From Clytia hemisphaerica (lineage: Eukaryota > Cnidaria > Hydrozoa > Leptothecata > Clytiidae): a stretch of 64,000 bases of DNA. Positions 9,001 to 61,785 of this stretch are shown piece after piece. The stretch lies in contig CACVBU010000619.1 of assembly GCA_902728285.1 (NCBI GenBank), positions 625,370 to 689,369 on the forward strand, given 5' to 3'. A model generated the notes under the pieces. The model was given only the letters and a program-made list of their open reading frames with translations, was not told the origin of the DNA and searched no databases. Position 1 is the first letter of the stretch. Every line of letters begins with the position of its first letter. Both the position numbers and the translations under genes were made by a program.

Positions 9001-11259
9001 GGCGCTGAAAATTGATTTTATAGCCAAGATCCTCGCTGGGTGAAAAAATAACTTGGGTAATTCTGTTGTGTCGGATGTGTTGGAGTAAAGTTGACTTACT
9101 TGGTAACTGGTCATTGATTTGTTAGCATTGATGGTGACGTTGGAGTTCAACCATTGGTTTCCTTTGGTTCCCTTCATCTGCCACAATGCAGCTCCTCTCT
9201 TGCCACTAGAGACTGTGGAGATGACGAGCCGATCGATATGTGGTCCAAACATGTGGTACCAGAAGGAAAGACATTTGGTGCCTGTTTGTTGTTTAGAAAG
9301 GAGGACGGCGTTGTCACCTTTTCGTCGTGGCCTGCTCGCCTCGATGAACATGTAAAACCCTGGAAGTGGAAATGGAGTTATTAATGCACATTTGTGAAAA
9401 AGAGCATTCGAATAAAATAAGTTACAGTAAATTTTTGTATAGAATTCACAAATCAACTTTCGAAAAGCAAATGGATTTGATGCGTCAGCAAGGCTTATAA
9501 CAATGCTGAAAGAGATTTCTGTGATATTCTTGCTGTGATAATTCCATGGTGAAAGTCGAAAACAGATGATGTATTCACTTACCGACAGGGTTACAGTATC
9601 CCCATTTATTGTCTTTGTCATAATTGCTAGTGGTAGCGCACCACGTTCTCAAGCCAGAAGCAATGCATTTGTTGTATCTTTTCTTCAAGTAAGTGAAAGG
9701 GAAGACACACGTTTGCCCGTTCGTCGTCGTTACTAAGCGAAAGGAGATAGAATGGTTGCGTAAGCGTTGCTGTCTAATCAGACTATACTAATTGACAAGG
9801 TTTTAACACAAGGAAAAGCATGGGCTGACCATTGAATTGATGAAACAATGATTTCGACAAGAGACTGTCTTCACGTAGGAGGACATTTAGCCCGGGCTAT
9901 TATAAAGATATTCAAAATAGATAGGTAAGCGAGATAAATAGAACTTTACACAGTCAATAGCGGACGAACTTATTGCAAAGAAGCAAATTTACTCACCATT
10001 TAATTTTTTCACTAACGAGGTATGATCACTACTTGCTCCAGTCCCTCCGGAACCAGTTTTCCCAGACTGCCGCCTCCAATCAAATTTGTCGTTTTTAGCT
10101 TGTGTCCATCCACAAGTATCTTTTTCAAAGTCACAGCTTTGTGCAATAATTGCTCCTGGAATTATTGGAAAATATGTTGGGAAGGCTTTATTTAAAAAGG
10201 CATTTCTACTAAAAAAGTTCCAAAATTATAGGATTAATTATAAAATTAATTAAGAAAATTACTTCATTAAAAAAATGAATTAATTATATAATTAGATTAT
10301 ATTAATTCTTAGGAGGGGGAGTTGCAGAGAAAATTTCTCAACTTGATTTGTCTGGTGTAATAAAAGTATTCAGTTTAAGTAGGAGTAAAATGCTGTCAAG
10401 TGTATTTTCCTGTAGTTGATGAAAAAAAAAACACTTTCGCTTTCAAGATCCTTCTTTTACGTAAGAAAGAGGTTAAAGGAGACGATCTTTGTTTGAACGT
10501 CATTTTCGTGTGAACAGAACTTTCTTTTGAGAAAATTACTAAAGCTCGATTTCAATTTGCAAGTCAATAAGAAATATGGAAAGTGGCTAACAAAAGTCAG
10601 GTCTCATCATCTTTTGAAAAAATATTTAGACATCCCTATCGGAAGGCAAAAAGGGTCCGAGAAAGGAATTTTCAAGACGTCTGAAAATCAACATTCTTCT
10701 GGAATTTTCAAATTTCAAAACTTTGCTTTGAAATAGAATTTGCTTAGAAACTTCGAATCACTAAAAACATAAGTACCCTCTCAGTACCCTTGCAAGAATG
10801 GTGTTTTTAAACAGAAACACACTATCCTTTCAAAGATCTCATTAAAAAAAGACATGTATCGTGCCAGACAAACCCAGACACTTAAGCTATGAGATGAATT
10901 GATATTTCGTCTATGGAGGTGATATTTTAAGATTCGCATCTGGAGGATAAGTATGATGTCATTTCGAGAAGAGAGCCCTTATACAAATGGTCCTTGGAAG
11001 AATGGGTCCTCAAGTCAAATATTAAAGGAAGCCTTGCATCGTTGGGTCATATGATATTTAAACTTTATTTGCTAGAAAATGAATAAGCAAAGGAGTTGTT
11101 GATAGGAAAAACAGCATGTTTTCTTCTATCGCAGCCGTAAAAGTGATAAACATGCAGACTCGAAAGGTAATTGTGAACAAAAAACTTAAGCTTACCTAAA
11201 GTGATGGATAAAATGAGTATCCTGGCGATCATTCTTCGATGAGGTGCCATCTTCTTCAA
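1..11259 (-). CDS. Secreted multi-MAM-domain protein with FN2 and lectin-like insertions (3' end outside window)
   Basis: Twenty-six minus-strand exons join in frame: 11196-11259, 9997-10155, 9583-9732, 9100-9359, 8605-8857, 8158-8405, 7910-8000, 7587-7730, 7170-7432, 6845-7013, 6553-6693, 6157-6431, 5289-5475, 4792-5090, 4329-4419, 3968-4105, 3500-3780, 3206-3374, 2856-2999, 2494-2720, 2171-2342, 1558-1908, 965-1383, 748-838, 429-572, 1-194. This gives about 1,708 residues before the window edge. Exon 1 starts at Met with a hydrophobic signal peptide (ILILSITLG). Nine MAM domains follow, recognised by CxFExxxCGW, FDWxxGxTxS..TGPxxDHT, CLxFWYHMxG..IGxL and [11 protein letters not shown] domains are extracellular adhesion modules. 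MAM1 holds a fibronectin type II domain and MAM7 a three-lobed lectin-like module. MAM3 ends in a poly-Thr, probably O-glycosylated, linker. I see no membrane segment within the window. Very sure of the family; the gene's identity is unknown. Confidence 0.9.
2171..2720 (-). other. Three-lobed beta-trefoil-like lectin module inserted within MAM7
   Basis: Two exons (2494-2720 and 2171-2342, phase 1 in, phase 1 out) encode about 133 residues made of three related segments. The first and third share LKHSSGLCV / LQHSSGLCM followed by a Gly-rich stretch and YxxC; the middle one has [12 protein letters not shown]. Three repeats of about 40-45 residues with one short strand signature each are what a beta-trefoil (ricin-B-like) lectin would show. 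I do not recognise the exact family, so the lectin label is structural inference. The module lies between the two halves of MAM7. Confidence 0.6.
5510..5998 (+). mobile_element. 5'-truncated LINE (non-LTR retrotransposon) 3' end
   Basis: An insertion in the intron between exons 5289-5475 and 6157-6431 of the MAM gene, in the opposite orientation. Its short reading frame (to 5768) has the Cys/His pattern usual at the C-terminus of non-LTR retrotransposon reverse transcriptases ([13 protein letters not shown], then RILLYG and FICDTSRFG). The element ends in an A-rich tail (about 5988-5999). The 8-bp word ATTGTGAT occurs at 5502-5509 and 5999-6006 as target-site duplication. It is a dead fragment with no complete ORF. 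Confidence 0.75.
9583..9732 (-). other. Fibronectin type II domain exon inserted within MAM1
   Basis: A single 150-bp exon, phase 1 at both ends, lies between the first and second exons of MAM1. It encodes an FN2 (kringle-like, collagen-binding-type) domain with the hallmarks CVFPFTY, a second Cys, [15 protein letters not shown]. All four family cysteines are present. FN2 modules bind collagen or gelatin in matrix metalloproteinases and fibronectin; ligand binding here is inference. The flanking exons supply the two halves of one MAM domain, so the FN2 domain is embedded rather than appended. Confidence 0.9.
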
Positions 11260-33980: not shown

Positions 33981-34101
33981 ATGACCAGCATGTATCGTGT
34001 TTACGTATTGTTTCATTTGTTCCTGTTTGTTTGGTTGTTTACTTCATATGTGACGCATGCGCAAGATGAAGGGAAGAAAATTGTTTTAGAAGCACACGTG
34101 G
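33981..34101 (+). CDS. Candidate first coding exon (signal peptide) of the giant dystroglycan-like gene
   Basis: An ATG (33981; in-frame alternatives at 33963 and 33990) opens a strong signal peptide: Met-Tyr-Arg followed by about 17 hydrophobic residues (VLFHLFLFVWLFTSYV) and a likely cleavage site at THAQ. Two usable donors follow: GTGGGT after 34097 (phase 0) and GTAAAT after 34101 (phase 1). The phase-0 donor would join in frame to the acceptor at 35994. The giant gene otherwise lacks a signal peptide, and this is the only good one upstream on its strand. The link is inference; intermediate exons are possible. Confidence 0.45.
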
Positions 34102-34449
34102 GTAAATTGTTTATCCAACAAACGAAACATTTTTGCAAGGTGAACTATTCTTCTGATTAGTTGAAATTAATTTTCATCGTGATTTATAAAGCGAATTATG
34201 TACAAGTCTAACTAAAAGTTGTACTGTTTTGCTGTTTGTGTAAACTTTTTCGCAATAGATTAATTAGCCACTGACCTGGTTTCTACATTGAATGCAAACA
34301 AGTGATACTTTTATGGACCTACCTGGTTATGCATTAAACACATATATAATTGATATATACGTGAGCATGACCGTTAGTCAATCATTCAGAACACAAATAG
34401 TGACGGTCTATTAAAATTAGTTGTTTGTTTCTTACAAAAAACGTTTAGA

Positions 34450-35330
34450 AACCAAAATTTCATGCTCTTGAAATATTCTTTCATATTTAAGACTTCGTGA
34501 GCAAAAAAAACATCTATCTCATCAAAAAATTGAGTAATTTGGCTAAGAACATTGATGCATGCTTATTAATAGTGATTCTTATAGATAAAGATGCCTTTTT
34601 TGAGCTGAAAAAACTCTTTTTTTTTACAGATATCTGCTTGAGCCATCTTTTATCTACTTTCATACAAAAAAGCAGAAAAAAATGAATGATCCAATATTTC
34701 ACAAAGTCCAAAAAACTCAAATTTGCCCAAAAACATTTTTTTTCGAAAATCAGGCACCGTCACCTTCGAGGGTTTATAGTTCTGCATCTTTGTGCAAAAA
34801 ATCATAAAGAATGAAAGAGCCAATCTCGAGAAAAGCTAATACTTAAATAATTGATAATGTGCTTATAAAAAAATATCGAATTTGGCCAGTTTTTCTGTAA
34901 AAACACGCCAAGCAACCAAAATTTCATCTCTAAACACACATATTTTTCAAAAGTAAGCCGTCATGAGCAAAAAAAACATCAATCTCATAAAAAAGTGAGT
35001 AATTTGCCTAAGAACATTGATGTCTGCTTATTAATAGTGATTCTTATAGATAAACATGCGTTTTTTGACCCAACACAATTTTTTTGCAAAAATCTTCCAT
35101 ATTTTACCTATGATGGTACCCTACTTTCATGCAAAAAATCAGAAAAAATTAATGATCCAATTTTTCACAAAATCGAAAAAACCTGTTTTTTGGCCCAAAT
35201 TTGCCCAAAAAATTTTTTTTCGAAAATCGGGCTCCGTCACATTCTGCCCACCATCATTTTTCACTTTTGTACCAAAAATCAAAAGATTCCTATGATTCAA
35301 TCCTGAGAAAAGCTGGTAACAGACGAACGA
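34450..35330. repeat. Tandem duplication, unit about 465 bp
   Basis: Sequence from 34450 is repeated from 34914 with clear similarity. Examples are ACCAAAATTTCAT at both starts, TGAGCAAAAAAAACATC at 34498 and 34964, GCTTATTAATAGTGATTC in both, and CGAAAATCxGGCxCCGTCAC and GAGAAAAGCT near both ends. Internal poly-A/T runs differ. No coding frame is conserved between the copies. Confidence 0.75.
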
Positions 35331-35489
35331 ACGAACACGGTTAATTTATAGGACCTCTATCCCACCGGGGTAGGTCCAAAAAGTGCTCACTTATCCTGAC
35401 TAGACTTTCATCACGAAGCCACAAACGACATTTCTTATTAATGATTGCAAGATCACACAATTTCAAAAGTGTTTTTCATCCATTTCAGG

Positions 35490-35993
35490 GTCATTCACCA
35501 AACATAAAATTGGCAACAGAACATATCCACCATTATTCTGAAGATGACGGACTACTTGCTTTCGTACCAACACACAATCAAGCTAATTTCCCGCTCTGTG
35601 GCAACGTTCATATTGAGGTTCAACAGACGATTAACGAGCACCAGTTACCAATATTGATAATATACTTAACTAGTGATCTAAAAACAACTCCCAATGAAAG
35701 ACATTATGAATATTTACAATGCTGCTAGAAAGATTTTCGATCAGAATTTTACCCTGACAACAAAAATGTCCGAAACAACTCGATGCATCAAAAGAGAAAC
35801 CGACGGGAAAGAGAGTCCTGCATATCTCGTCTTATCGCACTCGGATTATCAACCAGTGGAAAAAGTGATAAGTCTTTTAAACACAGTAGCATTGTACACG
35901 GACATTATCGGATACTCGACATGCCAACACTATTTGAAATACTACAAGCGAAGGTTCACTCGTTCTTTCTCTCGACTTCTTCAACTTGGGTAG
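35490..35993 (+). other. Open frames of uncertain status 5' of the giant gene
   Basis: A good acceptor (ATCCATTTCAG) precedes 35490 and opens a frame to 35728. A second frame is open from 35694 to the TAG at 35991. Neither shows dystroglycan-type motifs, and I find no strong donor joining either to the acceptor at 35994. They may be poorly conserved exons or intron sequence. Confidence 0.3.
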
Positions 35994-38900
35994 TTCTTCG
36001 AATTCACAAACAAACGTAGCTTGCCATGCAGTAGTAGTAATAACAAACCGATCGCAAAGACATCTTCCTACAACGTCATAGTGGACATCAACAAGTTTGT
36101 TTACATCAAACTCGATCCCAACATGTTTGTGGACGCTGAAGACGACCATCGCACCTTGAAGCTTCACATGGAATGGTCGAACGGTCGCACCATAACGTAT
36201 TCTGATTGGCTACAATATAATGGTGTATTGCAACTGATGTATACATGGGCCACTTATGAGACTTTCATGAAACAACCGAAAGATGGGTACAGTTTCGTGG
36301 TCACTGCGATGGATTCGTGTGGAGCGACTGGTTCCATCAACTACAAAGTCAAGATAAACAGCAATTTGCAACCACCTTGCTACGCGTTTGAGTTACTGGT
36401 GGAATCAAACTTGATTGCAGATACACCAAGAACACATTTATTGGGAGACATGGTTAACATTTTGGCCATTCAATTTAACGATGCAAAACTTTCCAAACAT
36501 TTAGTTCAATCGTTGATACAGCACAGCGCCATCAATTCAAGACTATTCTCCTTGCTTTTCAGCGATAGCACAATTAGTTGCAATCCCTGTAATTTAAATA
36601 AGATTCGTCAGATCGAAACGACATCGCAAAATAATCCAGCATTTCATTCAGCTTTTCCGCCGAATTTCAAATATTTGGGATTCACGGTGAAATGGGATTC
36701 GTGTTCAGGCCACTCGCCACCGATTACGTTGAGGAGCCTACCGCAACTCACCATCAACAACTACGGTTCATTGCAGTATGAAATTCCTGCAGACACTTTT
36801 TACGACGCCGAGGAAGGGTTCACAAACAACCTCAAACTATCCATTGTTTCTAGTAAAAACATTATTGCTACCTTACAATACATGAAGTTGTCGGTTTATC
36901 AAATCCAAAGCAATCCTAGTTCCACGAAATCAACCTTCACCATAAAAGCTTCCGATAGTAAAAACCAGCAGACAGAGCTGCAAATTCACATCAATCTTAA
37001 AGGAGCGTTACCTCAGCCTCCTGGTTACTTCAGTTTTCGTTTTACCGCCTATTACTCGTTTTCGAGCTCAGATGCAGAAATTCTTAACCTGGTCATGACA
37101 ACGTTTTCAAAGTATTTGAATACTAACAGTATGAAGAATTTCAATGATTACGTCATTGTGGGATTCGCGCGAACAGGTTCTTTCCCACAATTCATCACTT
37201 TCTCATTCGCTTTCAAAACATTTTATCATCACACACAAGGTTACAACCAATTCCTGATCGCACAAACCAAACTCTTCTCTCAAGGCTCAGTGTCCAATAT
37301 GTTCATTGCAGACACCATACAATATATTCGAGATATCACTGGTCAAACACACGATAACTACAACGGTTATATTTTCGTAAAACCGACTATGGTGCAACCA
37401 ACCATGATGCAAACTAAGATCAACCCTCATCCAAGTACGACTATAGACAACATCTCTCCTAGTACTGTTTCAACCCAACCATCAAGCAAAGTACCTCATA
37501 TCGAAGGCCCGATCGCTCTTTACCAGATAGGTCCGTTCAAAGTCACCTTCTGCGACTTCATGGTCTTCCCCATTCCCGATAACCTTTTCAAAGACGATGT
37601 TGACGGTTCAACGCGTCGACTGAAACTATCTTTAACAGACGCTGGACATCAACCTGTCAGTACATCTTCCTGGATTTTCGTTGACTCGGACATACAAGTC
37701 ATCTACGGGTATTTAAAAGTTGAAGATTATATTGAGTTACGAGGTGGAGGTGCAAACAAAGACACATTCTTCCACCTGGTGGCCACAAACTCCAGAGGAG
37801 GATCCACGTCTTTACGATTTAGTGTGGAACTACCAGAAAAGATCCCAGACATCTTATACACAGTCAGCATGAAGGTGACGCCCTTCTATCAACCCTCCAT
37901 CCCTGAGATCAATGAACAACTCATGCTACTGACCAAAATCTCTGCTTACTTTGGACTACCTTCTAAGTTCTCTTGGATCAATATAATTTCCTTCAAACGT
38001 CAACCAAACGAGAACCAAATTACCATTGCGTGGACCAATTGTACCTTGACTGGCCAACAATGTCATAACAAAGACGTCTCAACCATCGCGTCCAAAGTCG
38101 TTCTCGACAACGGTCAACCAAATTCTGTCTTCGCTCGCTTTTTATCTCCACAATACATCATTAACGAGATCCGAGCGACGACTTCTTCACAATGCCAACA
38201 CACGACGACGTCGACACTTCAACCGACGTCGTCAGTCATTGGATCATCATATCCAATCATTGTCAATAACATGCCGACGCTTGAAGTCACTACTCTCAAT
38301 TATTTCACTTATAAGGTAGGTCCATCTTTATGCCAACAAGGGGAACCATATCATCACCATCATCAAAATTTGTTTTGTTTCTATTTAGCCCTTTTTGCTA
38401 AAAATCATAACTTGGAGGTCTCAAGAAACATTTTCTGGTTTAAAAAACCTCATTTTAACTAACAGTTATAGCTGAAACTTATCTCCCACTTTTTTATAGA
38501 TCCCATTCAACACGTTTTACGACTCAACAGACGGGTATACACCCTACCTCACATTGAGTATGTCGTCCAACGCTGGAAAACCCATCCCAAGATCCTCTTG
38601 GATACAATTCAATGCAGCTGCACAGGAAATCAATGCTTTCTTATACGTTGACATCTTGAATGGTCGAGAAGTGGAGAATTTCCAATTTGTGTTAACAGCA
38701 ACTAACTCTTTTGCAAGGTCTAAAAACATGGTGATTAACATTCAATGTCGTCGAAAGGTGTTTCCAATGGGTGGTTTCTATGTGGAGTTTACTGGACGCG
38801 AATATTTCAATCAAATCATGAATAATATACAAGTTCTTACTATTCTTCTTCAACGTTACTTCCAGTACACTGGCAATCGATACAACACAGAGATCGTCTC

Positions 38901-41900
38901 TTTCCAAAGGAACACTGGACTGAATTTTCGAATGAGGTTCATGTACCACCGCGTCATCGATTCCTCCAACGATTGTAATGTCACCGAACTGTACAACTTG
39001 CAAAAGATATTGCTCACGAGCCAAGGGCAAATCAATTCTGACTTTATGTTCGCATTTTTACCAGAAGCGGTGGCAAGTCATGTCACCATCACTACCTTCG
39101 GCTCATGCTTGAACCTGCCTACCACCACACCGTCCACCCCTCAACCTGTCATATTGAACCAGATTCAACCTTTAGTCATCAGCAATGCTGGCTTCTTCCA
39201 ATACTCCATTCCCGAAAAGACTTTCTATGACGCAAAAGATGGCTTTACACCAATGATGCAACTCAAACTTTTGGACCAATACAAAACGGAGGTTCGTAAG
39301 GACTCTTGGATCACTTTATCCAACAACCAAGTGATATTAGCTTCACCCTCTAGCATGCAATTTCCAAACACCAGGACAAACCAGTTCTATCTGCGAGTGA
39401 TCAACAGTCAATTGAAGTTCACAGATTTGGCTTTAGAAGTGACAGTCATTAACCAATCACCTGTCGACGCTTTACGAATCACTCTAACAGGCGTGCACAA
39501 GTTCCAATCCATTTCAAGTACAGTAGACATAATCATTTACATCATGGAAAAACTCAACTCTTATTTGTACGACCAAACGAACCGTAAAGAGACAGTGTTG
39601 ATCAGTTTTTATCACAGCTCTTCCACCTTCACAATGCACCTGGATGACGCTTCACTGATTGGCGACATCTGCTCATCCAACGCATTTCGAACCTTAGAAA
39701 AGAAGATTTACATCACACCTGGTAACATCCATCCACAGATGGTGATGGAGTTGTTCCCTCAAGTCTCCTTGACAGAAGTTCAATTTTCTAAGCAATGTAA
39801 CAGACCGATCACAACCTCTAAACCAACCACAACAGAAAAACAGAATACCCCACCATACGTCAACCAACCTATACAACCAATACATATCTCCTTTGGTCGG
39901 TTGTTGTTCAAATACATCAGTCCTCAAACATTCCTAGATAGGGAGGACGGTGATGCCAGACACTTACAATTAACACTCCTCCACAACAATGGTGGAACAG
40001 TCCAACCCGATAACTGGGTTCAAATGAACCAGAACACTCTGCTCATTTACGGTTCGTACACTTTACAAGATTACAACATGTTACCGTTTGACAAATACCG
40101 TTACATGCTACGAGCAACTGACTCCAAAGGCTCTTTCACAGCAACTCCAATCATCTTCGAGCGTCCAAGCACATCACTAGAGTACAGTTTCAAGATTCGT
40201 ACCACAATTACCATGTTTTATGACTCCACCACCAGCTTGGTGAACGAGCAAATACTTTTCATCACCAAGATCAATAGCTACATCACAACCTACCTTAGAT
40301 ATGGTATTCAAATCATCACTTTCACCAGAAGCATCTTGATCAAGCAACTCATTATTGAATGGGCATTGGACAATCTCAGCGATGACATCTGTCCTTGGCA
40401 GACATTACAATTAATCACCGACAAATTCGTCTCCAACAGCCAACCATCAAGTGGATATCGATCAATCATGAGGCCAGAATACTCAGTCAGTTCAGTAGAA
40501 ATCCAACGAATGCCTTCATGTCAACAAATCACCATTTCACCATCCCCATCATCCACCACCACACATCTCCAAACCTCCACATCCATTCCTACAACTCCAA
40601 TACCCAAACCTCCGACCATTAACACAAATATCTTTCCAATAAGATTATCAACCAAGCAAAGTGCCATCTTCATCTACTACATACCGAGCAATGCATTTAA
40701 CAACCCAATGAATTCACCCTTAAAGTTAGACCTCTTAACAGAAGAGGGTAGACAACTGGAAAATAGATCTTGGGTTTCATTCAACAAGCAGCATAATTAC
40801 ATTTATGGAATGTTGATTGAGGATATGATTACCAGTGGTTCTTCTGATGTGTACCGTCTACAAGCAACTAATGGTGGAGGATCGGTCTATTCTCAAGTCA
40901 CTATCACAATACCGGTCTTAGAGAAGAAATTCCATTCGATCACTATTCTGTTTCGTACAAGAGACACCTTCTTTAAATACGCAGACCTTACTGCACTCGT
41001 CATTGGCCAATTGAGTCTATACCTCAGACAAAGTGGTGTCATTAATCTCTTATCAATCATCAAAATGCAAGGGAATTTCTGGTCCGTACAATTCGCAGCA
41101 TCCACTCAAATCGTCGACTATTGTAACATGCAACAATACTTTACGTTTCGACGGAAGTTTGTAGTAGACACACTAGTTAGTACTTTGTTCAAGAACTTTG
41201 TTTATCCAGAGATGGAAGTACTACAAGCGTACGCTAGCAATGAACAATGTCAAAACGTAACCACAACAACCACTACCACACCCACACCAAACGTAAACCT
41301 CCCTCCCACCGTCTTCAAATTGTTTGCGAAAGTTACGGCAACGACATGTGAGGTGTTCGAGTTTCAGATTCCTAACAACTCGTTCTTCGACGTGGAAGAC
41401 GGGTTAACATCGAACCTGGCGATCACCATACAAGAACCGGATGGAGCAGAATTACCAAAAGATGTTTGGCTGGTTTTCAATGAAACGACGCGCACGTTGA
41501 GAGGATTGTTGACGCTGACCGAAGCAGTGAATAGCAACCAGTTTGTTTATCGAGTGGTGGCTACTGATAAAGCAGGTTGGTTAAGTTCCATTTTTTATTT
41601 CAATCTTCCATTTGTTGTCGAAATTAAATCTTAGAAAGAAGTTAAAAAGCAACATCAAATTACCATTCCTTTTTCTAGGGTACAGACCAGACTTCTATAA
41701 CCAATATTCAACATATTTTTAATAAGTCCCTTTCCTGTTTCAATAAATTTTATCTGTTTTTCTTACTTTACAGTGCAAAACGGAAAGCATTCAGTGGTAA
41801 ATTTTTTTCTCAAAAATGCCCTTGCCCTTCTCATTTAATTATCATTCTTTTGCAGGTTTATCAGTGTTCCAAATGTTGACCATTCACGTTTCAAAACCTC

Positions 41901-44900
41901 AAAACGAGGTTGACGGTCACTTGGTCGAAACTTATGGCACCATACTACAACAGATAGAAACGAACGCACTCAAGTTGCTCATTCATCAGAAATTCCTTTC
42001 GTACATTCAACAAAAGTTCACGCAAGGCTCAGTAGACGGCCTCCAAATACATTCCATGATCATCTATCCAACCAATCCAAAAAGCATGAACTTGAAATGG
42101 TCCATCTGTCAACGTCAATGCAACCAGAACGTGGATATCGAATTGAAACGCATTCTCATGGTGCAGAACATACAACCTAATTATGACGTCATGGTGCTGC
42201 TACACCCAACTGCTCACGTGACTAGTGTTTCTATCACTGGTGATACCAAATGTAGGACGACAACGACCACCACTACCACTCCCACCAAAGTAACACCCTC
42301 TCCAAACACACCTCCTACGATCAACAGAGTTATACCAATTTTAACTGTGGAAGGTTGTAAATTGCTGGACTACCAAATACCTCATGATACATGCTTTGAC
42401 AAAGAAGATGGATACACAGCCAAACTTCATATCAAACTTCTTCATGAAAACAAGACTGAAGTTGGAGATTCGTCGTGGATTCACTTGAACCACGCAACAC
42501 AAAAGATCTATGGTATTCTGAAAATCAGTGATTTGGAAGGTTCGCCAAACAATGTCTTCACATTCTACTTGGTTTGTCAAGACTCTGGTGGATTGAGTGT
42601 GGAGCATCGGTTCTACATTCTACCAAGTGGTACACCAATGATGCCAAAGTATCATTTCACTATGAAAAGTTACATCTACGTCAACGAGATGATGAGTGAT
42701 TCAGAAATCCAACTGCTCTGGATCAAGAGAATGAAACGATACCTCGGAGAAACAGAATACAATATCCAATTAATTGACATGAAGCGAACCACAATCTTAT
42801 ATCCTCAAATCACCATCAAATGGTATAATTGCTCCATACAAGATCCCTGTTCGCAAGATGCTTTACATTTGAAATCCTTATTATTGAATGATAAAAACCA
42901 TCACAGTTTGAATGAGCAATTCTCTAGATCGATGGTTCCAGAGTTTGTCTTAATCTCAGGAGCTATGGAGCAACAACAACCTTGCCAAGTTATCACTACG
43001 ACCACTGGAACACCATCCCTAACAACAACTCCACCAGTCAACCAAATACCCATTACTGTTATGAAAGTTTTGAAAGTGGAGATTGATGTTTGTGAACAAG
43101 TTGTGTATCAAATTCCTGCAAACGCTTTCTTTGACGTTGAAGACGGGTACACGCGGAACTTGAAACTCTCTTTGACCAACAAAGATGACAGCAAAGTAGA
43201 CGAACTGTGTATCAATTTCGACAAGGGAGCACAGACTATCTATTTCCGATACGTCAAGGATTTGTTTCAAAACAACCTTGAGCTGAAACTGACAGCTATG
43301 GATTCAGAAGGAGGAAGCGCAACGAGTGATTTAGTAATCACCACAAAAGCCAACGTTGCGGAATTAAGCCACTGGTTTTCTATGCGAAGTTACGTATATA
43401 ACATTGTTCCACAGAAGTTGAACATTCTGAACAGCTTCACAGCAAAGTTAGAGCATTTCTTCAGTGATAAGAGCGGCGGTCAGATCATGTTCAAAAAGTT
43501 ATCATATACAGATAATTACATGGAAGTTGAATGGTCGAATTGCTCGTTGTACACAACCTGCAAGAATTCATCCTTGTCGAAAATGAAATCCAAAATGTTG
43601 ATGTTTGACTCGTCAAGCATAGTGAACCCACAATTCATTTCCTTCATGGCTCCATCTTTCGTCATTACTTTCTTACAAATGCAATATGGAGATATCTGCT
43701 ACCCACACCCATCCACAACTGTGGTACCAACGCCCAGTACACAGGTCACGCCCCAGCCATCAGTCACACCGACACATGGTTTAAACACGCCTCCACGTGT
43801 CATGAAAGAAATACCTGTGTATAGTGTACCGTTATGTGCTTTATTCAGCTTTCGCATTCCACAAGATACCTTCTATGATCGAGAAGACGGTGGTACTAGA
43901 AATTTGAGACTTGAGTTACGTCAGTTCAATGACCAAGAACTGGCGAGCACGTCTTGGATACAGTTTGTGGAATCAACACAAGTGGTTTACGGTCAGTTCC
44001 GTCAAGAGGGTAATAACATGGACAGTAAATACATCAGTTACATTTTGCGAGCATATGACAGATCAGGCCTCAACACTTTCACCGTCATTACAATGAAAAC
44101 ACCCCCGATGGACACCGTTCCCTACTTCATTGAGGCCGAATTCACCCGATTTTACGATGAAAACACACCGGAACTTATCTCACAACTCTTTCTAACAAGC
44201 AAGATCTCTACATATTTAGGTGAGCAAAATGTTGGCAACGTTCTTGCTATTTCCTACAAGCGTACTCCAAACACTATCGAGTTATCTTGGACAAATTGTC
44301 GACTGATTGATAGATCATGTCAAAACAATGAGGTGCAAGATAATATTCGCAAATTTGCGACGAACGGTGTAGATCAGATCAACGATGACTTCAGACGAGC
44401 TATGGATCCATACTACATCGTCAAGAAAGTATTGGTCAACACCTCCAATTGTGACAAGTTACCGAGAACCACCACAATTCCATCGCCTTCCAGCTCCATG
44501 TATCCAGCAATGTCTTCCATCTCCACAAACCAGCCACCAAGGGTGAACGGGATCATCGAACCCATACCTCTCAAGAAATGTGGGTCATTCTCTTACACCA
44601 TTCCGAATAATCTTTTCATCGATGAAGATGGCAATACCAGGAATCTGAGGATACAATTCTTCGATATCTATGGCAACGAAGTCAACAATCGCACATCTTG
44701 GGTTCAATACAATCCAAAATTATTCCTTATCTATGGTTTGATCAAATGCAGCGACATCGAGAAACAACCTGACGCTGGATACCAATACATTCTGGAAGCT
44801 TCTGATTCGCAAGGGCTTTCCGTATTCACAATCCTACCATTTCAAAAGTTGGATCAGATCACTCGAATAGGGTTCGAGATTGAAATGGAGATTGAATGTT

Positions 44901-47900
44901 CCTTTGATGCAGTGACGCCGTATCTGAACGATATTTTTCAAATCATCAACAAGATTGTCTTCTTCTTTGGCGATCACAACATGGACAATATCAAGGTAGT
45001 GAAATTCTTCGAAAAACCAGGATCTATAGGCACAATCATATTCAAATGGACCAACTGCACGTTCGATTTTACCACATGTCCAACAGACCAAATCGAGTTG
45101 TTGGTACAAAAGATTACATCCTCAAACGGAGCATTTGCCAAAAGCTTTGAGCCAAACTACAGAGTGAAGAGTATTGAATACGTTTACAACACGCCCTGTC
45201 AGAAACCCACCACGACACTTGCCCCTACAACTACACCCTTACCAAGCCCTCCGAAAGTAGTCAACTATATTTCGACCATCATAACAAAGCGCTGCGCAAA
45301 TCTACACTTTCCCATCCCTGAAAAGACGTTTTATGACGATGAAGACGGTTGGACGAGAAATCTAACATTGCTGTTGATGACAGTGACAGATGAGAAGTTG
45401 TCATCAGGAAGCTGGATTCAGTTCGATCAACAGTCTCAAACTATCATAGGAAGACCTGCAAAATTGACAAACATCCCAGACCCTTACCAATCCTTTATTT
45501 ACAATTTAGTTGCCATGGATAAGGAAGGAAACCAATCCCCACTTGTTATTCGAATCGACGTTCTATCCGACCCTAAACCAAACACAATCAACCAGAATTT
45601 CACTCTGATCCTTAAGAAAAACTTTCCAATAAACATCCCTGATGTAAAAGCTTACAAAGAACGATTGAAAACCAAGATCGCGTCGTATTATGGAGATACT
45701 GGGTCATATTTCATCAACGAAATCGATTTTGCATCCAATCAAAACTCCTTACAGCTTTCTTGGTCGAATTGTACAGTGAACGGACCATCATGCAACAACA
45801 CGTTAGCTCGTTTGATCAAAGACAAAATTATGGACCCATCTGGAAAATGTCGAACACAGTTTGCATTCATATTTCTACCGGAATTCACTGTAAAAGAGCT
45901 GACAATGCAAATTAACTCTGACTGTGGTATCATCACAAGTACCATAACGCCCACGACTTCCGCCCTCGTTACACCTTCGAGCAGTATTTCACCGATGCCA
46001 GACACCACCATCAAGGTGCTGGTGGAAGAAATTAACATTCCTGTCGATTACTGCAAACAAGTGGAGTACATGATTCCTGAGAACATATTTCACGACGAAG
46101 CGACGGGTAATTCACGTTCGTTCACTTACAGTTTGTTGTATGAGGATAAGTTAACAGTTACTTGCAGTTCATGGTTGCAACTCAATGTAACCTCGGGTAA
46201 TGAGCTGTATGGCAACCTGTTACGGACGCAACCAGTTAACCCTGTCAAGTACAAACTGCGAGCATTGAACGAAGTTGGAGCATCTGCCACATCTGACATC
46301 CTGATCGATACAACACAGCTAGAAAAGTTGAATATCTCATATCGTGCTGCATTTAGTTTCCAAACAACTTTGGACGAAAAAATATGTGATGCTGAGCTCT
46401 TGTTCATACTGAAAGAGAAACTAAAGACATATTTTGGTGATGATACCACTTCCTACACCAGCTTCTTATTCTTCTCACGAGGTACCAAACAGCAACCAAG
46501 TTACGTCATGTGGACAAATTGCACCATTCGCACCGATATATGTGATTTCAGACACATTAACGAAATCACTGCCAAGCTATTCGTCGACGATCAAAGTCTA
46601 GTTGTCAAGCCTGCTCTCATCGAAGCACTCAAACCTGAATTCACAGATCTGTCAGTCCTTGAAGAGAAATTGGGTCCTTGTGACGCAAATGAGGTCTTGT
46701 CAGTCGGTTTGAGTCCAGATCCAATCTGTGTGGACTCGTGTGGGGAATTTATTTACAAATTGAATGATAGCATGTTTATAGATCCTGAGGATGGCAATAC
46801 GAGCAAACTAATCATCGAAATGACCAATAAAGATTCCACACCTTTGGCACCCAATTCGTGGATTCAGTTTGACCAGGTGAACAAAGAAATTGTCGGTTTC
46901 CCATCGGAGAGTGTTATAGTGAACGAACCAAGTGAAGGTTATGTATATTTGATCAACGCGTACGACTCACAGGGTGCGGCCGCTTCCGTACCCGTCACCT
47001 TCAAGATGTGTAGAGGTCTACCTTCTTATGATGGTAGTGTTACCGTCAAACTGAAATGCAACAAGACAATCACCAAAGCCATTCATATTGTAGAAGACAC
47101 ACTGCATAGGATATCAGAAGCGTATTACGATGGGACATTAGCCGATTTCTTTCTCGTCAACTATCAATTGAAGATGAATGATATGAACTTTACGTGGACG
47201 AACTGTACAGGAAGTGTTGACTTCGATTTGGAGCAATTACAGAATTCGCTGAATGATTCCGACTGTCAACCCATCAACGTAACTATCACTGATCATAAAG
47301 ATTACCCACCCATAGTTGTTCGTGATAATTTGAGGTTCGACATCTCCTTTTGTCACCCGAAGAATTACACCATTCCTTTTGACAGCATCGTTGACGGTGA
47401 GGATGGGGACTTAAGAAACATGACCGTGTATCTGGCCTTTCAAAACATGCAACCTCTACCATCAGATTATTTTTTAGCTTTGTATAAAGATTCACTTGAG
47501 GTCATTTTTATGGCTGCCAATCAAACGAAAAGTAAAATCATATATGAATACTACTTAGTAGCAGTAGACAAAAGAAATCAAACAGCTCGAATGATGCTTT
47601 ATTTCGAAGTGATGGATGATTTCCCGCCCGTCAATTACCTGATTGGTACGAAACTTCGAGCTCCAAGCAACATCGCAACTATTCAAAGCATCAACGATTA
47701 TTTCGATGCAATCAACCAATACAGGAATAACAACAGCACATGGTTAGTAAATGACTACCGAGGCTTTTCAAACGGAACAATCATCATACGTTATACACAA
47801 TGTACCCATTCCTACCCTAAATGTGACCACAAAAACATTGAGACATTCAGATCAACCTTTATGTCGGAGGATGGTCAAATCAACCCAGATGTCATTGCAG

Positions 47901-50900
47901 CAATGTTTCCAAGGTTTAGAGTACAATCCATGGATATTGAAAGATACAAAGATTGCTTGTTGGAGCCCAACACGCCACCAGAAAAACATCACAATCTCAG
48001 TGTGACCATCAAAAGATGTGGCATAACAAAATATCGAATTCCCGAAGACACTTTCTTTGACAAAGAGGACGGGAACACTGGCAATCTGACATTGAAATTG
48101 TACAGAGATGAAGGTACTCAATGTTGGTTGAAATTCAATGCAACCGACCAACAAATGACCCTTCTCTATGATTCTGGCAAAGCTGGTCAGACATTCAACT
48201 TCACTATCCAAGCAACAGACGTGAGAGGGGAAAGCGTCAACGCAACTCTCGCCGTGTTTTTCGAAGAACGAGGAAGAATAAGCTACCAACTAGTCTTCCT
48301 ATTCGACATTGTTGAAACCTTACCATGTTTCGAAGAGAAGTATTTCGTATCAGAAACGATGTTGACATACTTCAATAACACCGAAGAAATAGGAGTTGCC
48401 AGTATTTCCAAAGGGCCTGACAACCTTTTAATGGAGGTGGTAGTGGAGCATTGCGATATGGACTTTTCACCATGCAACTACATCGTCATGGACCGCTTAA
48501 CAAAAGCATTACAAGATGGAAATTCATTGAAGAGGGAATTTATTGATTCCTTTTCCACAGATAAATATATACCGAGGTACTTGTCGCAACGCAAAGGGGA
48601 GCCGTGTCTTGACCGAAGTAATACAGCACCTCTCTCCCAAGGAGAGATCGGATTGGTGAACGTGACCGCTTGCACCAATCAGACCGAGCTTTTTTTACCA
48701 CGTGATCTAGTGATGGATAACGAGGATGGTGATTGGTCCAACATGAAGAAGGTACTATACAAGGTCTTGGAAAGTGGCGGGAAAACACTTGTTACGTCGA
48801 AAGACTGGATTCAAATGAATGGCGTTTCTATTATGATTATTTACGTTCGATCCCTGGCAACTTCACAACCAGAAGAAGGCTACCACTTCCTAATCGACGT
48901 CACTGACAGTCGCGGTAGTCAAATCGAAGTACCGCTCACTGTGACCTTTGAACGAGACAGACCAAACATTACATTTGCAATAAACATGTCTTTAGCATTA
49001 CGCCAGACCGGTATCGTTGACTCTATTAAAAGTTGGAAAGTGGGTATCGAAAAAAACCTCAGTTTAACAATTGAAGTATTGAATTATATGTCTAGAAGAG
49101 AGAATACCATACTAGTTGAATGGACCATTTGTGGAATGAGCAAAGACGCGAGTCGGTGTCCTTACGAAGAGATCAAGAAAATTGAACAGTATTTGATGGA
49201 TGTGGGTGAACAAGTGAACATGACTCGTTATGGGAAATGTTTGGAGCCACCTTCAAGACCACCCAACAGTACTGATGTCTCCTTCATTCTTGATCCATGT
49301 TTGAAAATCAATTACACCATCCCTGAAGACGTCTTCTTTGACGACAAAGATGGTGGCACAAGCAACCTGACGCTAAAAGTCGTGCAAAATTACCCCACGG
49401 AGCTGGCCGATTTTATCACGTATGACGAGAAGAGGTATTGTTTCCATGGTATTGTCATGTTGGAATTCTTCGATCGATACAAACGTTTGGAATACCTGAT
49501 TCAAGCGACCGATTCTGATGGTCTGACGGCCAACGCCACTTTGAGATTCGTTGCTCGTAACATCACAAGACAGTACCAATTCCGTATTCACGCTACTTAT
49601 TTCGGTCAACCGCGAACCGAAATTGCATTCGCCACCGAGTTCTGTTATCGCTTTGAGAAATACCTTCGAGACATCAATTTGGATGCTGGGGTGACGATCT
49701 ACAATGTGTCAACGATATCCGAGCAAGCTTCGTCATCCAGGTACGATATCACGGTCACGCCATGTGCGCTGACAGGTCCTGTTTGCAATAAACAGACATC
49801 AACTTCAATCACTGATCAACTCGTCACAACATCAAGCCAACCAAAGTTCAGCTTCATCAGAGAAATGTTGGACCTCATCGTCCCTGATAAAATCGACATT
49901 GTAAAAGAAAATGTCTGCCATAATATCGATTGGCATTCCGAGGATGTCAAATATCTTAAAGCCAGCATTTGTAACAAGAAGCAATATTCAAAAGACGTTT
50001 TAGTAAGAAATGCAACAGAAACAACAACACTGGTGTTTGACAACCTATATCCATGGATGGCATTCGATGAAAGGAGTCAGATCATCTCACTGAATCCTAC
50101 TTTGAGAGAAGTGGAAACACAACCAGAGGATGGCTACTTGTTGCTTTACAACATCAGAGACGGGAACATCCAATCACCAAAGCAGAACACCAGTGTCTTG
50201 ATTGAAGGGGATCCATCAGATTATAATTTCATGATTGTATTGCACCTCAGACCAGATGAAGCGCCGGTCACCTCCACACTGGATACTACAAAAAGGTTGC
50301 AACTGATCAATGACATTCAGATGAAAGTAAACGAAATCACCAAAGACACCAATTTCAATTTCACGACTGTCATCGATGTTAATTCCACCTCGGACAATAT
50401 TCTTCGAGTATTCCTGTACGATTGCAATCTGAACGGCGAATTCTGCCAAACCCTTTTGAATGACGAACTTTACGAGACTTTCACAGACAGTGACGGATCA
50501 ATCAAAGCAAGCATCCAAAACACATTCCAACCAAAATACAAATTGGAAAGCATTACAACATCAAAACGAGGGAGATGCAATGAGCTACCCAAAGATCGAC
50601 CTTACGTCACTGATGAGATCCCACCAATGAATTTATCATTATGTCAGAAACTTGATTATCGATTACCCAAAGGTTTGTTTATGGACACTCTGGATGGGGA
50701 GATCAAAGGTGAAAGAATCCGTTTATGTGATGAAGCTGGTAACGCTATAACATCCCCAACCTACATCAAATACAACGCACAACGAAACTCTTTACAAGTC
50801 ATTCTCACACAAGAACAGCTAAAGAAATTCGGTGATCGAAAGCTTTTAATGTTCTATTTGAAAGCGAACAACAGTCGTGGTGAGATGGCAAACACTTCAT

Positions 50901-53900
50901 TTGTTCTTCATTTACCAGAACTTCCAGTCAATAACCTGATCATTCAAACGTATGCTTCCTCGCCCTACTCACCCGAGCTGAAGTCAGATCTAGATGTTTT
51001 ATTAGATGTTTGTGCACGCATTGAAAACCACATTCGGTCCACTAATGAGTCGATATCAGTGATTGGGCTGGATCGAACGAAGGACACTATCACAATAGAG
51101 TGGACGACATGCAATATAATGCAAGAAAACTGCTCTTCCGAACAGGTCAACCAAATCATGGATAAGATTTATGGTGATGAAGAGAGAATCGTATTTCACG
51201 CGTACTACGTTCAAAAGTTAGGTGAAAACTTTGGCTACCCTCACATCAAAACGAATGTTCGAGAAACAAACTACTGTCTTTACCCAGGTGGGAACGAACG
51301 TCCACAATCCACCAGCAATGTCAGTCTTGTTGTGGAGCAATGTGGATACTTCGAGAAGAAGTTAGACAACGATATTTTCACAGATCAAGAAAACGGTGAC
51401 ATCACTAACCTGACGCTATCTATGAAGTTTACTAACGGTTCGTCAATCAAGCCCGATTATTGGATACAGTACGATGACGAAACAAAAATTATTTACGGTA
51501 TTGTTGACGACTCGGTGCGAATGGAAGAGAATTACACTTTCCTCTTGGAAGCTGTGGACGATTCTGCAGAAAAAGCGAATGGATTTGCATTCGTTTATTT
51601 GAAGGAGAATGCAACTTTGATACGAGCGAATCAGGAAAATGGAGTGATATCGTTACAATGTTCAAATAAAGAAACTTCATCTTTGAAAACTATTACCGAC
51701 ATTCTAGACCAGATAGCGCAAAAGATATCCAGCTCACCTCAAGATATCTACTTGAAACGTTTCTTCAAGAACGAAACAACACTCGTCATTGAATACTTGT
51801 CTTGTAAAGAAATCGATTTATCACCATCAAAGCAATTAGTTGATACAGCCGTGGATAGTTGCGTTGTAGAAGACGTGGTCATCGTTCCTAAGCCGCAACC
51901 CACAACAACGACAACGACAACTACACGGAAACCTAAAGTACGTGAGACCTTGGATATTATCAACATCACCTGTGGTCAACCGTCTGAGTACAAAATCAAA
52001 GAAACAACTTTTGAGGATGATGACGGGTCAACTTCCAATCTAACACTGCAAGTTTTGGACAAATTTGAAGACGTGGCGGATTACCCGTACTTGACGTTCA
52101 ACACATCCACACAAACCATCACCACTTTCGTCAGTACTAAAGACTGTCAGCAAACAGACATTGAAGATCATTACAATCTTCAAGCAACTGACAAAGATGG
52201 AAACTCTGTCATCTCCAAATTTGAGATCAGGAAAATTCCAAAAACCGTGTCTTGTTGCATGTACATACAAACAGAAGTTTCGAATATTGATCAGCTGGAT
52301 GAAAAGCTACGATTATATAAAACATTGCAAGAAATATACACTGGAAATTCAACATCCAAAGATATTGTGCTGGTGGACATCTACCGAAACTCCACATCTA
52401 ACAAAGACATTGCAGTTTACACAGACGGTCAAATCACCAACGAAACGTGCTTCAAATCAAACACGAGGCCACTGACAGACCCTGTATTTTCTGACCCAAA
52501 CATGACTGTTGTTCAACCTTCATTCGTTCAATCCTTGAATCAATATGAACCAACAGATACCAGAGCTATAGCAGAACCAGCTTGTAATAAAACAGTGATT
52601 CCTGTAGTACCACCTCCACCGGAAACAAGCGCAGCGTTAACGGATGATTTCATTGGCGAATCAGATTGGTTCTTATACTTGTTACCTTTATTCATCCTGG
52701 CATTCATGCTACTGATGTGTTGCTTTTGCTACTACTGTTGTAGATATTGTTACAAATGTTGTGTGGCGCCGACGCAGAAAGAGAAGACTCTACCCTACAC
52801 AGCCCCATATACAGGAGACGTCCTGCCCACCGCAAGGGGGGGAGGACCATCTCCACTTCCTTATTCAACCTTACCAAAAGAAAGGTACGACGATGACCCT
52901 GGGTACGACGATTCTATTGACGCTGCACCAAAGAAACAAGGTAAAGATTCATAATTGATGAATGGCCGAGAACTATTCAAAACATATACAGGCTTTTAGT
53001 ATTTGTCATGAGATGTTTAAAACTTAAATATACGAGTTCTTTGGTTAGCCTCGACTTTGATAATATTTAAGTTCTACGAATACCAGAATTCAAGATCATT
53101 AGCGCCGAAATTGCAAAATTGAACATTTTAATTTAGTTTCTAGACATTGCCAATGCTAAATACACGTTTTCTATCTCTATTTATCGCTCAAATAGGTATC
53201 ATTGCACTTCCCATCACCACGAAGGACGTTCAAATGCAAGAAGCAGCAGTCACAACGACTACCACAACTATGGACCGACGACGACAAGAACGTATGCGTA
53301 AACAATCCAGTATCATACAGCCAGTTTACGTTGATCAACAGGAAGAAGCCAACAAAATAGACTTCGATGAAGAGTTCAATAAAGTGTATTCGCAACCATT
53401 ACGCGGTGAATCATCCACATTAAGAACTATCCAACGAACTAAAGTCACATCGAATTCAATGGACGATATGAACCGTTCGAGGGAGATGGTTTCACAGCGG
53501 TTAGCAACGAGTCGACCAGTTACCACTTCATATATTGCTGGTACCGCTCCGATGAGCAATAGCCAATCCTTCACACATTCATTGCAAAGACAACAAGACA
53601 ATCGTGTAACATCACGTGATCAAACAGCACGCAGGATGGATACACGACGGAATTTACGGCTGCCGGCAATTCCGACCGGTCCACCACCCCCATATTCACC
53701 ACCACGTTTTCAACGCGTTTTCCGGCAAAATATTATTCCAAGTTATTACGAACGTTATTTACGACATCGACGAAACGAACAACGTAGTAATCCAATCGTT
53801 ATTACTGAAGACGTGTTACCGGCACCGTCGCGTCGTAACGTCAGCCGCGTGTTAGTCTCACCCAAACCAAAACAAATCATGTCTCTTCCCATAAAGCGAC

Positions 53901-54592
53901 GTAAGCGTGAACGTGAACGGGAGCGCGTGGTGACGCCCGTGATCACGATTCCAGACTCATTGGAAGAAACTTCAACGATAAGCGATGATTCATCTTCCAT
54001 TGAAATGAAGGCCATTTTGAAGGGAAAACAACACTCTATACGACGATTACTTCAGAAGACACCGATCGATGAAACTACCTTAATTACACCTTTAGTACGA
54101 AAGAAAAAGAAGAAAAGACACCTCCCTAAAGAAATCATCGAAATTCCAACTACTTCTTTTAAGTCGAAAACTAAACGACGTTATTCAGTCTCGTCAAGTC
54201 CATTGTTGAATAACTCACGTGACACTCTCATAAACAAGAAGTCGAGGTCTCACTCCAAATTCAAACACAAGTTTTCGAAACCATATTTGTATGATTACAT
54301 ACCAGTGAAAAGGAAGTCCGTCAGACGTTCCAAACGATATAAGGCACAAGAAGAGGTGGCAGAACCCACTATCACGTATTCAACGTTATCAAGGAAACAT
54401 CGAAGAAAAGAGAGTAAAAAGTTACCGACGTTGGAAGAGTTGTTAGATGATTCTCTCGATATCAATGATAAAGTTGACTTGAATGACTCACATGAAGGTG
54501 CAACAGACACTTTGAAAAAGAAAAGAGCGTCATTAAAAAATGACCAAAAAATCTCATGGATTGATTTAAAGGACATTAATTTGAAAGAATGA
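35994..54592 (+). CDS. Giant transmembrane poly-dystroglycan-like receptor
   Basis: Four exons (35994-38315, 38500-41575, 41856-52940, 53196-54592) join in frame into about 5,959 residues plus a missing N-terminus. The ectodomain has about 23 modules of about 235 residues. Each is a cadherin-like (CADG) domain with IPxxTFxDxEDGxTRNLxL, W(I)QF and DSxG, followed by a domain with KIxxYxG, W(T/S)NC..C, PxFxxxFxPEF and a final Cys. This pair, with its WTN..C signature, is the layout of the N-terminal half of alpha-dystroglycan. Many early linkers are Thr/Pro-rich and likely O-glycosylated; later modules are rich in N-glycosylation sites. One membrane helix (about residues 5404-5430) runs into a Cys-rich segment, then a 520-residue basic tail with PPPPYSPP. 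Probable role: cell-matrix adhesion linked to the dystrophin/WW-domain cytoskeleton. The upstream splice to the signal exon is unresolved. Confidence 0.88.
41856..52940 (+). other. 11.1-kb coding exon carrying most dystroglycan-type modules
   Basis: An uninterrupted coding exon of 11,085 bp, acceptor TTTTGCAG before 41856 and donor AAG|GTAAAG after 52940. It starts inside module 8 and runs through the membrane segment. CADG cores begin near 42372, 43108, 43852, 44598, 45310, 46068, 46755, 47362, 48030, 48690, 49313, 49990 (degenerate), 50652, 51358 and 51990. An upstream in-frame ATG at 41816 is in the intron and is not the true start. Confidence 0.9.
53196..54592 (+). other. Last exon: cytoplasmic tail with PPPPYSPP motif
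   Basis: The acceptor TTTATCGCTCAAATAG before 53196 has a long pyrimidine tract and matches in phase (1) the donor after 52940. It encodes 464 residues rich in Arg, Lys, Ser and Thr. PPPPYSPP is at 53681-53704, close to the PPPYVPP motif by which beta-dystroglycan binds dystrophin WW/EF-hand regions. Basic clusters (RRKRERERERV, RKKKKKRHLPK, KRKSVRRSKRYK) could act as nuclear localisation or phospholipid-binding sites. An ATG at 53147 lets this stretch look like a separate intronless gene; phase and motif argue against that. Confidence 0.8.

Positions 54593-55107: not shown

Positions 55108-61785
<6,678 letters not shown>

Follow-up and report, generated by a model that had tools for sequence, protein, structure and literature searches.

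The 64,000-nucleotide stretch of the Clytia hemisphaerica genome analysed here (the window; C435:625370-689369, the genome searched being the 417-Mb assembly that contains it) carries on its + strand a gene for a giant membrane protein of the dystroglycan type. We found that the protein contains 23 tandem copies of the membrane-proximal dystroglycan module, that none of these copies keeps the Gly-Ser maturation pair, that their order is conserved in a divergent relative, and that a single membrane helix is followed by a tail with a conserved WW-ligand motif. It is probably an adhesion receptor of the dystroglycan superfamily, presumably uncleaved, with a 23-fold amplified module and an anchor through the WW ligand. 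Dystroglycan connects the matrix with the cytoskeleton, and muscular dystrophies result when it fails; the IG2+MAT module is usually one cleavable membrane-proximal piece.

With a profile trained on relatives and on the window, 23 non-overlapping tandem units of ~225 residues were found between residues 19 and 5379. To lessen the circularity of this profile, another was built from the units of one relative, P0004, alone; it found all 23 window units with a weakest i-Evalue of 8.5e-17, and its best match to 100 shuffles of the protein was 0.4. A preliminary description of the locus, made from the letters alone, had counted about 23 copies, which was the number given by both profiles, but the W(T/S)NC motif that it had placed in each unit was present in exact form in 7 of the 23. 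Each unit is made up of an IG2 (cadherin-like) domain and then a SEA-like maturation domain, which places the protein in the dystroglycan superfamily. The unit alignment comprised 21 units (units 4 and 8, which span introns, were left out), and 20 of the window units share 14-32% identity with unit 11. The unit coordinates below, from searches with the two profiles, are supported by structure models or trees where noted.

36048..36713, + strand, unit 1 (IG2 + SEA-like pair)
36717..37337, + strand, unit 2
37509..38204, + strand, unit 3
38253..39120, + strand, unit 4, split by intron 38316-38499
39145..39807, + strand, unit 5
39850..40533, + strand, unit 6
40609..41259, + strand, unit 7
41302..42262, + strand, unit 8, split by intron 41576-41855
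42311..42994, + strand, unit 9
43049..43711, + strand, unit 10
43790..44464, + strand, unit 11 (also structure model)
44534..45208, + strand, unit 12, Gly-Thr at cleavage position (also structure model)
45248..45934, + strand, unit 13
46013..46690, + strand, unit 14
46703..47290, + strand, unit 15, second domain shortened
47306..47968, + strand, unit 16, Gly-Thr at cleavage position (also structure model)
47975..48616, + strand, unit 17 (also structure model)
48629..49231, + strand, unit 18 (also structure model)
49259..49927, + strand, unit 19
50015..50590, + strand, unit 20, degenerate CADG half, match starting at profile position 55
50600..51277, + strand, unit 21
51302..51892, + strand, unit 22, second domain shortened
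51932..52594, + strand, unit 23, membrane-proximal, grouping with ordinary dystroglycans in module trees (also trees)

The DAG1 family (PF05454) was matched on three ectodomain frames at 3.8e-13, 5.5e-8 and 2.7e-44 (49.9, 33 and 152.2 bits; cut-off 23.3), in keeping with the dystroglycan-class receptor of the preliminary description. Unit by unit, 11 of the 21 units scanned matched DAG1 at E up to 1; unit 11 alone scored 20.4 bits, below the cut-off. The units had, however, been taken for the alpha-dystroglycan N-terminal domain pair (IG1+S6), and this identity was ruled out by sequence and structure comparisons in favour of the membrane-proximal IG2+SEA-like pair. The unit profile gave no sequence match to IG1+S6 entries at E up to 10, and the structural match to IG1+S6 was clearly weaker than that to the juxtamembrane pair. 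The strongest matches of the units were dystroglycan, and cadherins and protocadherins were also ranked highly by Foldseek.

The Gly-Ser maturation pair was found in none of the 23 window units, two of which (units 12 and 16) have Gly-Thr, and in all three comparison dystroglycans, namely two ordinary Clytia ones and the solved one. All 546 rows of giant proteins, the window and redundant records included, held 4 Gly-Ser and 6 Gly-Thr. Because no unit keeps Gly-Ser, the chain is most likely uncut from the distal tip to the membrane and would stay in one piece. In Adams and Brancaccio (2015, PMC4582122), the dystroglycans of Nematostella and of nematodes are likewise described as being without the Gly-Ser pair.

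P0004 is only 36% identical to the window protein and also has 23 units in the same order. The best match of every window unit in P0004 was the same-numbered unit (23/23, 22-54% identity), and by best match window units 4-23 mapped to units 1-20 of P0002 (38-69% identity). In an 86-row tree, which left out two units of 150 residues or fewer (one from C74 and one from P0008, both of a second giant family described below), all 23 window units paired with their P0004 counterparts, with weaker support for units 7 and 15. By these comparisons the array is frozen, each position being conserved one to one in P0004; with units paired across relatives yet only distantly similar to unit 11, it shows no recent turnover. 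A protein search with units 9-15 gave one match, P0027 (scoring was confined to the 7,990 candidates with the most words in common), and prokaryote genome contigs scanned with unit 11 for close relatives gave 28 pattern matches and no relatives.

Strong divergence among units is also a property of recognition molecules, and CADG domains share the cadherin/Ig sandwich, in keeping with the Foldseek ranking. Cell-cell or self-recognition adhesion through the CADG domains, cadherin- or protocadherin-like, in place of a matrix receptor is thus a conceivable though unlikely alternative. It is opposed by the dystroglycan identity of the strongest matches and by the comparison of two Clytia haplotypes, which differ little: the ratio of nonsynonymous to synonymous rates (dN/dS) was 0.20 in this one pair (117 synonymous and 88 nonsynonymous differences), indicating constraint, unlike a hypervariable gene.

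The dystroglycan-type receptor reading also draws on the membrane-proximal and cytoplasmic parts. Hydropathy gave a single membrane segment, in agreement with the one helix described before, and the following features were located.

52661..52747, + strand, single membrane helix (residues ~5402-5430), then a Cys-rich juxtamembrane stretch (hydropathy; alignable in 6 relatives)
52853..52876, + strand, tail motif PLPYSTLP, common to P0002, with PIPY in P0003 (alignment)
53654..53704, + strand, tail motif LRLPAIPTGPPPPYSPP, a PPxY of the WW-ligand type (LRLP and PPPY conserved in 6 aligned relatives)

An alignment reaching from the window protein as far as P0007 covers the helix, the Cys-rich stretch and the LRLP..PPPY motif. 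A single helix with a cytoplasmic PPxY, canonical for dystroglycan, is thus present in the sequence, and binding is predicted. The PPPPY tail of the preliminary description was confirmed as PPPPYSPP, but not at the C-terminus: the motif lies ~300 residues before the end, inside a tail of ~530 residues, whereas in vertebrate dystroglycan PPxY stands at the extreme C-terminus.

Between units 2 and 14, the linkers at the 12 joins are 10-59 residues long and rich in Thr, Pro and Ser (mucin-like). At joins 14-18 they are 4-5 residues, and at the later joins 9, 31, 5, 10 and 13, the last being a Thr run. There are 79 N-glycosylation sequons in the first 5,395 residues, and Glyco_transf_49 (LARGE/B4GAT1-type) matches above the cut-off were found on C928 and C41 of the same genome. 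The membrane-proximal IG2 + SEA-like module has been amplified to 23 tandem copies. We propose that these form a long arm outside the cell, which by an estimate from domain sizes might measure 150 nm or more when extended. The close-packed proximal part would be stiffer, and the glycosylated distal part with its mucin-like linkers more flexible. The arm would bind matrix or a neighbouring cell, and the conserved PPPPYSPP would anchor the receptor inside to a dystrophin-class or other WW protein.

The same linkers, sequons and glycosyltransferase matches would suit a mucin-like spacer at the cell surface, or a protective coat, that lacks a specific ligand and in which the modules serve as a glycan scaffold. 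This seems unlikely, as position-by-position conservation of 23 folded units together with a WW-ligand tail exceeds what a spacer needs.

The gene of the proposed receptor was assembled from four long + strand open frames (35994-38459, 38500-41631, 41801-52951 and 53144-54589; the longest open stretch at the locus has 3,717 codons). In-frame GT-AG introns at 38316-38499, 41576-41855 and 52941-53195 (joins 38315/38500, 41575/41856 and 52940/53196) give a coding stretch of 17,880 nt, with 5,959 residues and a single terminal stop. Other in-frame joins are also possible, and the chosen set keeps the units continuous. At the first two joins the NCBI model P0001, from the other haplotype, gives identical residues, and P0002 does likewise at the third. 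P0002, P0003 and P0004 carry the same cytoplasmic tail on one chain with units, and exon 4 therefore belongs to the gene. Contig C598 carries a haplotig that runs colinear with the window for 17 kb at 98% DNA identity. That the locus encodes one single protein, as first proposed, is thus supported by the in-frame joins, the relatives and the haplotig. The extent given at first, 35994..54592, is right at the stop codon; its start is a mere open-frame start, and the gene begins further upstream.

33981..34139, + strand, candidate first exon: ATG, hydrophobic signal-like stretch, CAAG/GTGAAC donor (from the sequence, without homology support; unproven)
35489..35989, + strand, region probably encoding the N-terminal part ahead of unit 1, with candidate frames and splice sites and a basic KRR stretch at its end (weak, by eye)
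35994..38315, + strand, exon encoding units 1-3 and the first part of unit 4, 5' border provisional (open frames, joins)
38500..41575, + strand, exon completing unit 4, followed by units 5-7 and the greater part of the unit 8 CADG half (joins)
41856..52940, + strand, large exon with the remainder of unit 8, units 9-23, the membrane helix and the tail start (joins)
53196..54592, + strand, last coding exon with the cytoplasmic tail, stop 54590-54592 (joins; same tail fused in P0002-P0004)

In P0004 an RKRR precedes unit 1, comparable with the KRR that ends the 35489..35989 region; the P0004 N-terminus gave no matches against the PDB. Repeats can be misassembled, but an assembly artefact or a row of several neighbouring genes is scarcely credible and was ruled out, the units being too different for collapse or expansion, the C598 haplotig colinear and the predictions from other assemblies single chains alike. 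The protein is already in public databases, as uncharacterized: the best match, which covers 64% of the query at 97% identity, is entitled 'uncharacterized protein, partial [Clytia hemisphaerica]'. Around the WSNC motif of unit 13 (about 45,760) P0001 departs from the window, through a difference either between alleles or in annotation. Pieces of an AT-rich repeat (~465 bp spacing, 78-90% similar) lie at 34428-35244 in the presumed first intron.

Several points weigh against a giant, uncut, WW-anchored receptor. The N-terminal part of the gene consists of candidate exons, which are unproven. The Gly-Thr at the cleavage position of units 12 and 16 might still allow cutting. By best match, P0005 is colinear only in part, and P0006 and P0007, although they keep the tail, show no one-to-one order. 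PPxY motifs also bind non-dystrophin WW proteins, and the ligand, expression and partner are ones that we infer. The prediction of adjacent units called for in the preliminary description was obtained for units 11-12 and 16-18, but the inter-unit geometry was of low confidence (predicted template modelling scores, pTM, of 0.51 and 0.41); because of this, we infer the 'rod' shape and its length.

Two ordinary one-module dystroglycan genes were found elsewhere in the genome. The gene at C373:644263-646454 (- strand, L016) has by eye an S6-like region, a furin-like site, a mucin stretch, one IG2_MAT with Gly-Ser, a helix and a tail ending APPPYSAR. That at C791:738418-741735 (+ strand, L015) has a furin-like site, a long Ser/Thr region, one IG2_MAT with Gly-Ser, a helix and APPPY in the tail. 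By these sequences, Clytia has at least two ordinary dystroglycans. The DAG1 match and PPPPY tail of the window protein would also fit the sole dystroglycan of the animal in an odd form rather than an extra paralogue, which these two genes make highly improbable. Weak DAG1 matches on C232 and C788 (L017, L018) fall in proteins that by eye are LRR-EGF membrane proteins and not dystroglycans.

A second giant family was found at C74:395669-409307 and 412501-426302 (L009-L012), a tandem pair of giant IG2_MAT genes, one with a 4,331-codon open frame; 15/18 units of the C74 array follow the order of P0008. A search with P0008 gave 18 proteins including P0008 itself, all with 15-21 units (1,117 candidates scored), and 13/18 of these predictions stop before the membrane helix. 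Like the window protein, this family (C74; P0008-P0026, with P0026 recorded as Clytia) has an array of IG2_MAT modules in conserved order, here 15-21 per predicted protein, and a helix where the prediction reaches it. It differs in its PPLY or PPNY tails (PPPY also in P0011), in that no LRLPAIP..PPPPYSPP was seen, in modules that do not correspond one to one with those of the window, and in the tandem gene pair. Residues 1-285 of P0008 include a furin-like site (RRKRR) and a GYPV stretch resembling S6, and the best PDB match of its N-terminus is the alpha-dystroglycan N-terminus, weakly (E 0.76); this family may keep the dystroglycan N-terminus once.

In the 86-row tree, unit 23 of P0004 (P0004_23) and of the window (WIN_23), 8yt8 and C373 grouped together at 98/82; the fork adding C791 had 83/38 and an inner fork 98/15. 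In a second tree the same four rows had 95/81, and all five including C791 96/90. A dystroglycan-only clade of the three dystroglycans was not rejected (approximately unbiased test, p-AU 0.132), and the branches are long. A sister relation of unit 23 to the ordinary dystroglycan modules is therefore suggestive only. The membrane-proximal unit would come from an ordinary dystroglycan module and the distal units from its amplification. The last module of the Nematostella dystroglycan resembles unit 23 in this respect, as it groups with the human dystroglycan module in PMC4582122.

The window protein shares with DAG1 of vertebrates and ordinary invertebrates the juxtamembrane IG2+SEA-like module, the single helix, the PPxY tail and mucin-like Thr/Pro stretches. 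It differs in having 23 modules versus one and Gly-Ser in no unit; no IG1+S6 N-terminus was recognised in its candidate N-terminal exons. The known maximum, in PMC4582122, is six IG2_MAT_NU modules in a Nematostella vectensis protein, versus 23 here; it is presented there as the dystroglycan of that animal, whereas Clytia has ordinary dystroglycans besides the giant. Its authors speculate that an array of tandem modules makes dystroglycan stiffer and places its outer part at a greater distance from the cell. In PMC12259307, 'a dystroglycan', its kind unstated, is one of 19 single-copy orthologues that are elevated in the eye-bearing tissue of three jellyfish species. No title on giant dystroglycans was among the literature matches listed, a scope outside which most subscription journals lie. 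An array of 23 modules in conserved order with no Gly-Ser, in a genome that also encodes ordinary dystroglycans and another giant family, represents a new extreme variant.

On balance we lean slightly towards a wider interpretation: that cnidarians, Clytia for certain, carry two ancient giant and mostly uncleavable dystroglycan-type families (15-23 modules, positions conserved) beside ordinary dystroglycans, that these form a long-range tether system, and that their distal units were amplified from the ordinary module. If so, the system would be comparable in size to the giant cadherins, with the dystroglycan module as a building block of arrays. Jellyfish may thereby possess a means of long-range adhesion or mechanical coupling that has gone unrecognised, and Clytia is workable in the laboratory. 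What the module does apart from cleavage could be tested on these 23 copies, each conserved in its own position but lacking the cleavage pair.

Elsewhere in the window, - strand exons at 56822-58613 resemble by eye those of a glycogen branching enzyme; two of them, searched singly at E up to 0.01, had no Pfam match. The - strand at 959-9648 carries a series of MAM-domain exons (PF00629; two exons at E 2.6e-33 and 6.8e-26, the others by eye).
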